Of a DNA stretch of 22,907 nt, positions 12,097-18,918 are shown piece by piece. The DNA lies in IMG/VR virus record IMGVR_UViG_3300049473_000005, positions 1 through 22,907 of that record. The stretch is one strand, 5' to 3'. The notes beneath the pieces were generated by a model that was not told where the DNA came from, made no database searches, and worked only from the letters and a program-made list of their open reading frames with translations. This DNA is from a virus. Both the position numbers and the translations under genes were made by a program. Position 1 is the first letter of the stretch. Each line of letters begins with the position of its first letter.

Positions 12097-13500
12097 TTAA
12101 TTCAGTTCGAGACCTAATCCTAAATTGTTAATTCCTTTCGTTTCTCCATATTTTCCAGCAAAACCACCAGTTCCATATACATAGGCCCCTATTTCATATT
12201 TTAGTCCTTGGTCTACAATCACAACACCATCAGGCCATGTCGATTCGGAAGCAAGCCCATAATTATACGGCGATCCAATGACTGTTCCGGCTGCAAGACA
12301 AGGACTCCCCGCCTGAAGCGTAAAGTCTCCCCCTGCTGCGTTGGTGAAAGGATCTGATATGCCCCAAATGGAGTCCGTATCCGTATATGTGCCGTCACCG
12401 GATGCCGAAGCCACGTTGAATGCATTATTGGTCCCTGTTACGGTTTTACCGGCAGCGATTACGATATCTTCTCCAAATTCGTCATAGCCAAGCGTGTTTA
12501 TAATCGTTGCTGACTCGTTGGCATAGATTGGGCTTTTGAACATGGAGACTTGTATAATAGAATTACCTGTGCCTTTGATTCTCAATGGCGATACATCAAA
12601 AAGTGCTACCTGTATCGAAGAATCATTGCCCGCTAGATCAAGACCATACCCTCCTCGGACGAATCGAAGATAATACCGACCCGTCGACTTCGTGGTGGTG
12701 CTCGCGTACCCGTTGTGGAAGTACACGTAGAACGCATCGTCGCTACTGCACGGACGCGTAGATGCCGTCCAATGCCGCGCATTCGTCGTGCTCGGAAATG
12801 CCGTGGTGTCGATGGCCGGGTTGCAGTTTCCTATATTGACAATGGACGGCAGTTCGAAACGATTGGGGATCCGCCAGTCCGCATAACCACCGACCTGAGC
12901 CGTATTGACCGATGTTAAAACATCCCAAATCGTATCGCCTGTGGTCGCAAAATTGGTCGATACCGGGCCTTCATCCGTTAATGCCTCAACGGTGGTAATT
13001 ACTGTCGTTGATATATTGGCAACTGTGTAAGTTCCGTCGTTGCTCACCGTACCAGATACCGTGAAAGTCCTACCGGCTACAAGAACAGACGTATCAAAGG
13101 GAGTTCCTGCGGCGGCGGTGATAGTTTTTCCCCCGCTGTCAAATGTTACGGAAGTGGTGGCAAGCGTCCAGTTCGACCAAAAAAATTGTCCATCAGTTTG
13201 AGGCCCAAGATCAGACTGAATCACCTCTCTCATCCACATTAACCCTGTTCGATTGTCTCTCACGCAAGCGTTGCTGGTTGCATGGGTCTTGCCGTTTTCA
13301 GTGACATTTACGGTAGATGCATACTGTCCTGTGGTCAAAACCGTGTAAGACTTGGAGACACCAAGTTCAAGATCCCCGTCATCTCCGGTCTGGTATGAAT
13401 CTTCCTGACCTGTTTGAAGTAGTCTCGACAAGTCATCTGCGTTGGCAAATGAGCCGGATATAAAAAATAACAGGATTAAAAATATAAATGCTTTTCTCAT
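12097..13500 (-). CDS. Secreted DUF1566 C-type-lectin protein with beta-helix cap (signal peptide)
   Basis: The 467-residue mosaic has, in order: signal peptide 1-19 (GSFA/NAD); DUF1566/Lcl-like lectin halves at 78-92 (ACVRDNRTGLMWM) and 191-284 (IWDVL..GGYADWRIPNRFELPSIV, RHWTAST, FYVYFHNGY, YYLRFVRGG); a beta-domain inserted between them at about 115-188 (VTFDSGGKTIT..TFTVSGTVSNDGTYTVANIS), of a type common in phage structural proteins; and a right-handed beta-helix end at about 285-445 (IIQVSMFKSPIY, FGEDIVIAAGKTVTG, GGDFTLQAGSPCLAAG, YEIGAYVYG). The DUF1566 fold is a ligand-binding scaffold and a known diversity-generating-retroelement target. The lectin core is more GC-rich than its flanks. 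It sits between gp4-like and gp10-like genes and is probably a receptor-binding or surface-adhesion protein; the signal peptide makes its location uncertain. Confidence 0.78.
   Translation of the reverse strand: MRKAFIFLILLFFISGSFANADDLSRLLQTGQEDSYQTGDDGDLELGVSKSYTVLTTGQYASTVNVTENGKTHATSNACVRDNRTGLMWMREVIQSDLGPQTDGQFFWSNWTLATTSVTFDSGGKTITAAAGTPFDTSVLVAGRTFTVSGTVSNDGTYTVANISTTVITTVEALTDEGPVSTNFATTGDTIWDVLTSVNTAQVGGYADWRIPNRFELPSIVNIGNCNPAIDTTAFPSTTNARHWTASTRPCSSDDAFYVYFHNGYASTTTKSTGRYYLRFVRGGYGLDLAGNDSSIQVALFDVSPLRIKGTGNSIIQVSMFKSPIYANESATIINTLGYDEFGEDIVIAAGKTVTGTNNAFNVASASGDGTYTDTDSIWGISDPFTNAAGGDFTLQAGSPCLAAGTVIGSPYNYGLASESTWPDGVVIVDQGLKYEIGAYVYGTGGFAGKYGETKGINNLGLGLELN
12649..12780 (-). other. 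Candidate diversified region of the DUF1566 lectin gene
   Basis: This covers residues 241-284. A run of C-ending codons (TTC TAC .. TAC TTC CAC AAC .. TAC .. AGC ACC ACC) occupies the lectin ligand-binding loop positions, as expected if AAC codons of a template were mutated at adenines. Between 12661 and 12740 I count 43 G+C of 80, against 22 of 60 at 12541-12600. No template repeat or reverse transcriptase is seen in the window. Confidence 0.35.
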
Positions 13501-16644: not shown

Positions 16645-17010
16645 TTAAACTGATACAACCGGTGTGTTCGCTGCGCCACCCATGCCCAGGATAATCCAGC
16701 CAACGGTGTCATTAACATAAAGCAGAGTGACAAAGTCACCGGCTGCGGTAAGAACAATGGTTGCAAACCCTGTGCATGTGGACGGCGTTATTGTTCCTGC
16801 TCCACCGGTAGCGGTAAGGTTAATAACCAATATTTGGCCGGGTTTGCCGTCTGCCAAAGTAAGGGCTTCGGCCCCGCCTGTAGTTTTGGCAACATACGCA
16901 TGAGTGACAGGAATCGCCAAAGTAGCGCCCGCAACTGCAATGGTAAGGTCATCCGTTGCGTCGGAGTCCTGCTGATGATACATTTCTGCAATTCTAAATA
17001 TTCGTGACAT
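16645..17010 (-). CDS. Small beta-rich head-associated protein (decoration candidate)
   Basis: The 121-residue protein has no cysteine-rich or catalytic motif. After a polar N-terminus (MSRIFRIAEMYHQQDSDATD) it is a run of short beta strands with Gly turns. From residue 50 (LTLADGKPGQILVINLTATG) to 113 (VGWIILGMGG) it follows a pattern common in phage structural proteins: GxxGQ, then Thr/Gly-rich strands, then a closing W. It follows coat (before the HNH insertion), so a capsid decoration role is plausible but not shown. The ATG at 17010 has AAAGGA 7-8 nt upstream, inside the HNH reading frame. The same pattern recurs at the C-terminus of the tailspike at 3487-5748. Confidence 0.7.
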   Translation of the reverse strand: MSRIFRIAEMYHQQDSDATDDLTIAVAGATLAIPVTHAYVAKTTGGAEALTLADGKPGQILVINLTATGGAGTITPSTCTGFATIVLTAAGDFVTLLYVNDTVGWIILGMGGAANTPVVSV

Positions 17011-17551
17011 GACATTTTCCTTTCTTTTTTATAAGTTTGTGTTTCAAAGCATACTGGTATGCAGGGCTTGAGCTATCACAACCTGCCCAATTAAGGCATT
17101 GTTCGGCGGCAAGACGCATTAAAACAGCCTCATATTTATAACTAAAACATCCAAGATTGCTTTGAATATTATTGTTCCTGATTCCTGCGCGCCATTTTTT
17201 TTCTCTATTATCATACCAAACGCCCTTTATCCCAGACTTGTTGTTTGATGGGTTGCCCCTATTTCTTTGATTACAAGAAACCGATGCCTCCCTTAAATTA
17301 TCTATTTTATTATCCGATCTCTTTCTGTTTTTATGGTCAATTTCAGGTTCAGGCATATATCCATGATGATATAAATAAATCAATCTGTGTGCTGGATATT
17401 GCTTTCCATCGATTGTAATAACAATATACCCATTACGATGCATACACCCAGCGTTTTTATGGACTCTCCCTGATCCTGATTTTTTCCAGTACAGCGTTCC
17501 ATCTTCATAATAAAATAGTTCTTTTAAATACTCTTGTGTTAATGTTTTCAT
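16994..17551 (-). CDS. HNH homing endonuclease with AP2-like domain
   Basis: The start used here is the second in-frame ATG (17551, 185 aa): AAAGGAG (17561-17567) touches the first ATG at 17560 with no spacing but sits 9 nt from the second. The N-terminal half holds an HNH_3-type nuclease: H55-R (AHRL), D72-H73 (EIDHKNRKR), N85-L-R and N94-Q-R-N. Residues about 106-150 (SGIKGVWYDNREKKWRAGI) form an AP2/NUMOD-like DNA-binding region. This is the usual build of free-standing phage homing endonucleases, which cut alleles lacking the gene and spread by repair. It sits between coat and a small head gene, and its last 17 nt overlap the next gene and contain that gene's ribosome-binding site. A hairpin upstream could shut off its translation. 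Confidence 0.88.
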   Translation of the reverse strand: MKTLTQEYLKELFYYEDGTLYWKKSGSGRVHKNAGCMHRNGYIVITIDGKQYPAHRLIYLYHHGYMPEPEIDHKNRKRSDNKIDNLREASVSCNQRNRGNPSNNKSGIKGVWYDNREKKWRAGIRNNNIQSNLGCFSYKYEAVLMRLAAEQCLNWAGCDSSSPAYQYALKHKLIKKKGKCHVTNI

Positions 17552-17620
17552 GTTTGACATCTCCTTTATTAGGTTGATTGTTTATTTACAATGTCACTTT
17601 TTTATGGAAATGTCAAACAT
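17550..17620 (-). promoter_or_regulatory. Hairpin hiding the HNH ribosome-binding site and start codons
   Basis: In the minus-strand RNA, bases from 17620 to 17606 (AUGUUUGACAUUUCC) pair with bases from 17564 to 17550 (GGAGAUGUCAAACAU): 15 continuous pairs, one of them G-U, with a 41-nt loop. The 3' arm contains the GGAG and both possible AUG codons of the HNH gene. There is no U-run after it, so it is not a normal terminator. Confidence 0.75.
17588..17616 (-). promoter_or_regulatory. Possible promoter overlapping the HNH hairpin
   Basis: TTGACA (17616-17611) lies in the 5' arm of the hairpin. Seventeen nt further is CATTGT (17593-17588), a poor -10. A transcript starting about 7 nt downstream would lack the 5' arm and leave the HNH ribosome-binding site free. 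The -35 is perfect but the -10 matches the consensus weakly, so this is tentative. Confidence 0.25.
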
Positions 17621-17640
17621 TTTTAAGTTATTGTTTTTGT

Positions 17641-18918
17641 TTAATAAGTAACGGCTACCCCACAGTTTGAAGGATTCTTTATTGTTATGCCATACCAGGT
17701 AAACAATCTGAACCGGAAGGTCATGGTGTCGATGTTCCCATCATAAACCAGGTAAAGGTTCAAACCGTTGCTCATGGTGTCCGTGATAACCTTCATGCCG
17801 TCATACTGTTTGAAAAGCTCGGCGGGAATTGTGCCGCCGATAACCTCAACCGCTGATTTGTCCCAGAACAGATTGGTTTTGTTGGTGGAATCGATGTTCA
17901 GACGGGTCAATGTTGCAGCATTCAGGATTGCCGTGTTGATATTGGCATAAGCCGCTTCAAGTGTCGAAATACCGGCCTGATCCGCAGCGATCGGTTTCGG
18001 GTAAATCTTGATATGGGTTGCATCGGTCAGTTCAATGACCGTCCATGTCATTGGCTGTCCCGTTGCTGTCTTGTCGGTCAGACCAACGGACTGAATCGCT
18101 GTCCCACTGTTTTCAAGCGTAAACTTATCACCTACTGATACCAAGGCCGAGTTATTGACAACCAGACTGGCCTCACGATAATCGACATTGGTTACAACCC
18201 CTGTCGTGGCGTTGACCGTTCCGCCCACAGGTACAAATGCCTGATTCCCGGTCACAGTTACGGCAGGATCGGCGCCGCCTGTGATATTCGGCAGAAATGA
18301 ACCGGTATAAACATCAAAACCAGCTACATTCTGACCGATCTGGCCGGTTTTCCATGTCTCCGCAGGCCGTCCCTGCAATGTCTGTCTGGCTGCAAGGTCC
18401 TTGCTGAACAAAAGCATATCCCGGTCGTTAAGCAAAAAATATCGCTGGGTTGTTTTGCCCTGGCGCTCGTTCATAATGGACTGAGCCTCAGCGATAAACT
18501 CATACCCGCTGGTTGCATTTGACCGATAAAACATAGACCCCTGAACCGCAATGGCCGAAGCAATCGCCTGATTTAGAACAGACGCCTGTTTCTTGCCGGA
18601 CTCTGTGCCTCGGTTTTCCCAATATCGGGTGTCCCGCATATCGTCGGCTCTCATTTTTACAAAATCATTCGACGGTGTTCCGAGTAATGCCGGATAAGTC
18701 TCTTCGATGATCCCGGTTTCCTGACCGGACAGATCCCATCCCGAGATGACAGGAGCGTGCTGCTCTACCGGATACCAAATGAAATTTCCGGAGTTCTGCA
18801 TACCGCCACCATCCGGCTGATGAAAATCAGTCATATCGAGCATGTCCATTTGATGCTCATGTGTTTCTAACGCTTTTTCAAACATTACCTCTGCAATCTT
18901 ACCTGTTGAAAGTGCCAT
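17641..18918 (-). CDS. Major coat protein (P22 gp5-like, HK97 fold)
   Basis: The 425-residue product compares with 430 in P22 gp5 and aligns along its length. Matching landmarks are MAL..GKIAEV at the start, NFIWYPVEQHAPVISGWDLS (res. 45-64), NDFVKMRADDMRD (84-96), and the C-terminal KTNLFWDKSAVEVI and FTWYGITIKNP. Residues about 215-315 form a beta-rich insertion at the place of the P22 I-domain. The protein builds the icosahedral shell on the scaffold. A good Shine-Dalgarno (AAAGGA, 8 nt spacing) precedes the ATG. Its stop is followed by an 80-nt non-coding stretch with a hairpin, and then by the HNH gene. Confidence 0.94.
   Translation of the reverse strand: MALSTGKIAEVMFEKALETHEHQMDMLDMTDFHQPDGGGMQNSGNFIWYPVEQHAPVISGWDLSGQETGIIEETYPALLGTPSNDFVKMRADDMRDTRYWENRGTESGKKQASVLNQAIASAIAVQGSMFYRSNATSGYEFIAEAQSIMNERQGKTTQRYFLLNDRDMLLFSKDLAARQTLQGRPAETWKTGQIGQNVAGFDVYTGSFLPNITGGADPAVTVTGNQAFVPVGGTVNATTGVVTNVDYREASLVVNNSALVSVGDKFTLENSGTAIQSVGLTDKTATGQPMTWTVIELTDATHIKIYPKPIAADQAGISTLEAAYANINTAILNAATLTRLNIDSTNKTNLFWDKSAVEVIGGTIPAELFKQYDGMKVITDTMSNGLNLYLVYDGNIDTMTFRFRLFTWYGITIKNPSNCGVAVTY

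Follow-up and report, generated by a model that had tools for sequence, protein, structure and literature searches.

The closest described counterparts of the locus analysed here are homing endonuclease genes of T4-like phages. According to the review PMC2988022, hairpins that hide the ribosome-binding site, together with promoters whose transcripts escape them, occur at I-TevI, I-TevII, I-TevIII and segB of T4 and at mobE of Aeromonas phage Aeh1, and none of the endonuclease-specific promoters of T4 is early; PMC3014915 agrees about the hairpins. The four T4 systems resemble the present locus in that the read-through RNA is closed and the RNA from a gene-side promoter is open. The T4 genes e, soc and 49 follow the same RNA logic, with start sites hidden on long transcripts, but they are phage genes and not mobile endonucleases. 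The Aeh1 mobE gene is also alike, being a free-standing HNH gene among phage genes, with a hairpin that buries the ribosome-binding site and a promoter whose RNA escapes it, whereas it differs in belonging to the ribonucleotide reductase operon of a T4-like phage and in using a phage late promoter, where the present locus lies in the capsid operon of a P22-like phage and has a promoter of sigma70 type. The kind of mechanism is already known from I-TevI, segB and Aeh1 mobE; what is new in the literature searched is the setting, with a P22-like capsid operon, a promoter of sigma70 type and, probably, reversed timing. A search of full-text literature, in which few subscription journals are covered, turned up no earlier description of a hairpin like this one at the junction behind a P22-like coat gene.

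The window, the whole 22.9-kb stretch of viral DNA that was analysed, has genes for a P22-type portal, scaffold and coat on its minus strand; a protein with an Lcl_C domain (PF07603) is encoded among the structural genes at 12097-13500, also on the minus strand. The gene for the major coat protein (17641-18918, minus strand; P22_CoatProtein, PF11651) has its stop codon 20 nt ahead of the stem described below. Between this gene and a small conserved gene (`dec', 16645-17010, minus strand), which normally lies directly behind the coat gene, sits an HNH homing-endonuclease-like gene (16994-17551, minus strand; 185 aa counted from the second ATG), the stop of which overlaps the start of the small gene. 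The HNH protein matches phrog_99 with an E value of 3.6e-57 and contains an HNH_3 domain (PF13392) that scores 50.6 bits, and the corresponding domains at the related loci L221 and L068 score 62.9 and 65.6 bits, all above the curated cut-off of 24.8. Among the matches listed for the HNH part, the only solved relative is 1u3e (E value 1.4e-4, about 75 positions), I-HmuI, an HNH homing endonuclease from a Bacillus phage; this similarity is weak, and I-HmuI differs in being intron-encoded.

The earlier note had claimed a 15-bp stem over the start site on the minus strand, and folding of 17500-17680 recovered it. In the minus-strand RNA, 17620-17606 (the 5' arm, AUGUUUGACAUUUCC) pairs without interruption with 17564-17550 (the 3' arm, GGAGAUGUCAAACAU) across a loop of 41 nt (17565-17605, minus strand), with one G-U among the 15 pairs. 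The minus-strand RNA 17680-17500 folds at -30.8 kcal/mol, compared with a mean of -20.7 kcal/mol for 200 shuffles (z = -2.87, three shuffles as good), and a start-site stem of this length was obtained in none of 2000 shuffles of the window leader (-110 to +40). Counting inverted repeats of 10 nt or more whose arms lie no further than 100 nt apart, the window has four, and this one is the longest. The exact string of the 3' arm was found in 14 viral stretches, which is about the chance level for 16 bases in the collection by a rough estimate rather than a computed value. Within the 3' arm, the ribosome-binding site GGAG (17564-17561) and the first AUG (17560-17558) are fully paired, in agreement with the claim that the start site is buried; that claim had extended to both AUGs, however, and of the second (17551-17549) only the A and the U are paired, the G remaining outside. 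The second AUG is the likelier start codon, because it lies 9 nt behind GGAG and because the related loci L002 and L135 align at this position. Among the window genes tested, in a comparison for which some gene starts were chosen by the analyst, the start region of the HNH gene has the highest opening energy, 17.8 kcal/mol, with 12.8 kcal/mol for the next gene and 2-10 kcal/mol for the others. Three other roles for the structure were considered and rejected: a terminator, since no terminator-like site lies within 16900-18000; a known RNA family, since Rfam gave 0 matches in the window; and coupling to coat translation by melting, since at the three loci carrying the stem it starts 15-22 nt behind the coat stop codon, a distance beyond the reach of a terminating ribosome.

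The same arrangement is found at L221 and L068, where a 15-bp stem again covers the start site, formed by CUUGACAUCUUCUUG with CAAGGAGGUGUCAAG in L221 (fold z -3.91) and by AAUUCAUGAUGUACU with GGUACAUCAUGAAUU in L068 (fold z -2.88; 0 of 2000 leader shuffles with a start-site stem as long). The arms of L068 are unrelated in sequence to those of the window and L221, and the complementarity of the arms is retained at the level of sequence: when leaders and start regions were exchanged among the three loci, the self pairings gave -22.7, -28.7 and -25.0 kcal/mol for the window, L221 and L068, respectively, and the six mixed pairings gave -7.1 to -18.1 kcal/mol. Aligned in register, the window and L221 share 15 pair positions, two of which are changed on both sides, three on one side and two broken, and this covariation is not significant by a column-shuffle control (124 of 500; two rows). 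At L135, where a related HNH gene (58% identical) occupies another site, there is an 8-bp stem only, with 484 of 2000 shuffles as long. An inverted repeat of this kind could instead be a DNA operator, for example with the endonuclease acting as an autorepressor in the manner of I-TevI, which represses its own promoter via an operator resembling its homing site (PMC2988022), and the motif TGACAT/ATGTCA does occur five times in 17005-17615, with 21 occurrences in the whole window. However, the loops of the three loci (41, 32 and 24 nt) do not preserve a helical phase, and these differing lengths fit a role in RNA better than a DNA operator; moreover, the arms of L068 have no sequence in common with those of the other two loci, and yet the start codon is covered by the repeat every time, as would be required for pairing in RNA. 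The operator explanation is highly improbable on this evidence, although an operator role and an RNA role are not mutually exclusive.

The junction between the coat gene and the next gene was read in related viral contigs, giving 70 distinct junctions with the window not counted. Of these, 67 are empty, two contain an HNH gene (L068 and L221) and one contains another gene (L107); with the window included, the start-site stem is present in three of the three junctions found to be occupied by an HNH gene. The HNH protein of the window is 68% identical to that of L221 and 61% identical to that of L068, whereas the coat C-termini are 70% and 89% identical, an opposed order of similarity that is as expected for a mobile gene. 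As judged from these sequences, the HNH gene is inserted at some junctions and missing from others, in the scattered pattern of a mobile gene. A blastn search of the cassette against phage records gave no match; relatives of the HNH protein in genome contigs numbered none by alignment A5 and two by alignment A6, neither of them adjoining a coat gene; and in the isolate phages with a related coat protein, AH02 and Vibrio 1.275.O, no endonuclease gene is annotated behind the coat gene.

A GC-rich hairpin precedes the next gene in 64 of the 67 empty junctions and is absent from all six pieces of junction sequence from the three loci with an endonuclease gene; the cassette therefore replaced that hairpin, and the new start-site stem most likely arrived together with it. 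These counts could also be taken to mean that the stem is simply a substitute for the usual hairpin between the coat gene and the next gene, acting as an mRNA stabiliser or attenuator, and that it covers the start site by coincidence. That explanation is rendered extremely improbable by the state of the start sites themselves: at the empty sites the start of the next gene is open (all 57 values no higher than about 8.5 kcal/mol; median 4.5, maximum 8.5 kcal/mol), whereas at the occupied sites the start of the endonuclease gene is closed, at 15.8-21.8 kcal/mol. Other arrangements were also seen in the course of the survey. The gene inserted at the coat junction in L107 (3829-4788) is a different one, of about 319 aa, and the GC-rich hairpin is kept there; in L005 the coat junction is empty and an HNH gene (1404-1979) lies between the portal and scaffold genes, about 10 nt behind the portal stop; in L010 the small gene behind the coat gene is present in two tandem copies, 63% and 50% identical to that of the window; and L068 and L135 lie on one phage contig (IMGVR_UViG_3300033145_000890), with two HNH genes, 49% identical, at different sites a few kilobases apart.

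The hexamer TTGACA that had been pointed out in the 5' arm is indeed there, at 17616-17611 on the minus strand, and aligns with a TTGACA in L221. Taken as a putative -35 element, it is followed within the loop by a TG (17596-17595) and a putative -10 element, CATTGT (17588-17593, minus strand), which aligns with CATAAT of L221 but is weak on its own, with three of six positions matching the consensus; the predicted transcription start, uncertain by a few nucleotides, is at 17581 (minus strand), also in the loop. Between the coat stop and the HNH start, the best sigma70-like matches are TTGACA-17-CATTGT with the TG extension in the window, TTGACA-17-CATAAT in L221 and TTGACT-17-TAACCT in L068, with scores of 9.7, 13.2 and 9.6, calculated from approximate position frequencies. 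The L221 match ranks first among 3463 positions and that of the window 11th among 22,877 gene-strand positions, and a stricter promoter scan of the window did not list the site. The window and L221 have the -35 element inside the 5' arm, and in L068 the arm lies between the -35 and -10 elements. An RNA starting in the loop is without the 5' arm, and its start site would therefore be open. The predicted energy for opening the start region is 15.8 kcal/mol in the read-through RNA and 3.6 kcal/mol in the loop-start RNA of the window, 21.3 and 4.3 kcal/mol in L221, and 21.8 and 3.7 kcal/mol in L068; the proposal in the earlier note that the former RNA is closed and the latter open is supported by prediction at all three loci, and its weak point is the -10 element of the window.

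The weakness of the promoter would be accommodated if the hairpin only insulated the gene, with no working promoter in the loop and with scant protein made via rare breathing of the stem or RNA processing. A strong stem is present in all three same-site loci, the promoter matches are weak in the window, where 56 of 500 shuffles do as well, and in L068, where 23 of 500 do, and seven free-standing T4 endonuclease genes are without a promoter according to PMC2988022, all of which would be compatible with insulation alone. On the other hand, the L221 promoter is near consensus (0 of 500 shuffles), and at all three occupied loci the best match has a 17-bp spacing and a predicted start in the loop, while scores of at least 9.5 occur at only two of 65 empty junctions, so that insulation without a promoter appears unlikely. 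Near other phage HNH genes of this kind, sigma70-like promoters scoring at least 11 were found in six of 104 cases versus three of 213 for other genes (p = 0.037), the same comparison giving p = 0.07 and 0.06 at scores of 9 and 9.5; one of these loci, L210, has TTGACA-17-TATAAT near its HNH gene, and most of these genes are without such a hairpin.

The leaders of a wider set of HNH genes were also compared, 92 loci being reduced to 86 distinct leaders for the stem test and 85 for the opening-energy test; of 30 loci with the C-terminal motif, six were left out for having no start and one for too short a leader. Five of the 86 leaders reached a start-site stem score of 10 or more, and none of 180 other genes from the same loci did. 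Two of these five cases are weak: L176 is very rich in A+T, and upstream of it no same-strand ORF of 90 aa or more comes closer than about 170 bases; for L004, 51 of 2000 shuffles equal the stem. In L161 a 14-bp stem (one of 2000 shuffles) occurs without a good ribosome-binding site. The whole distribution of opening energies of the HNH set is shifted relative to the control genes (p = 0.003), but energies above fixed cut-offs of 8, 10 and 12 were not enriched in HNH leaders over control genes (p = 0.36, 0.10 and 0.17), and the hairpin is therefore not a rule for all such HNH genes. With five long-stem leaders among 86 and opening-energy cut-offs that do not separate the groups, the device is thus recurrent and not universal. 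At other sites, a different structured RNA, resembling int-alpA (Rfam RF02996), lies just upstream of related HNH genes; it is above the gathering score at two loci (L223:1996-2059 and L238:1998-2064, plus strand), the same GATAGG...CGAAA core is present in L231, L235 and L331 and, by eye, in L135, and this association with HNH genes may be worth studying.

Taken together, we propose, with a probability of roughly 0.72, that a mobile cassette consisting of a promoter, an insulating hairpin and an HNH gene is inserted between the coat gene and the next gene of P22-like phages, where the hairpin blocks translation from read-through RNA and the RNA of the loop promoter escapes it. The cassette would settle at the coat junction; in RNA reading through from the coat gene, the leader would pair with the region that holds the ribosome-binding site and the start codon, leaving the endonuclease untranslated, and a sigma70-type promoter in or around the 5' arm is predicted to start an RNA in the loop. 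The coat operon of P22 is a late operon. Since read-through from the coat gene is presumably late and the loop promoter is of an ordinary sigma70-like kind, the HNH gene would be off on late mRNA; it may be on from the incoming or unreplicated genome and off during late capsid expression, and its product presumably has homing activity. The analogy with T4 I-TevI drawn in the earlier note holds for the hairpin mechanism described in PMC2988022, but its timing does not carry over: in the T4 systems the open RNA is made late or in the middle period and the closed RNA early or in the middle period, and the I-Tev genes lie in introns, whereas the read-through RNA of the window is presumably late. 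If the coat operon is late, the timing is probably reversed with respect to T4. A fuller version of this idea, which we put forward tentatively and at slightly less than even odds, is a T4 timer run backwards, in which the sigma70 promoter would drive a burst of endonuclease early on, from the incoming genome, and the hairpin would silence the gene during high transcription of the capsid operon, with the -35 element of the window and L221 serving also as part of the 5' arm and the arms rebuilt with unrelated sequence in L068.

In conclusion, the design suggested here is very small, with a promoter inside a hairpin arm, and would be easily tested in reporters; it raises the question of whether early-only expression suits homing. 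If the proposed reading is true, hiding a start site behind an RNA hairpin would not be a peculiarity of T4 but a recurrent device among selfish endonuclease genes, and it would provide a route for such genes to live in the operon that a phage expresses most strongly.
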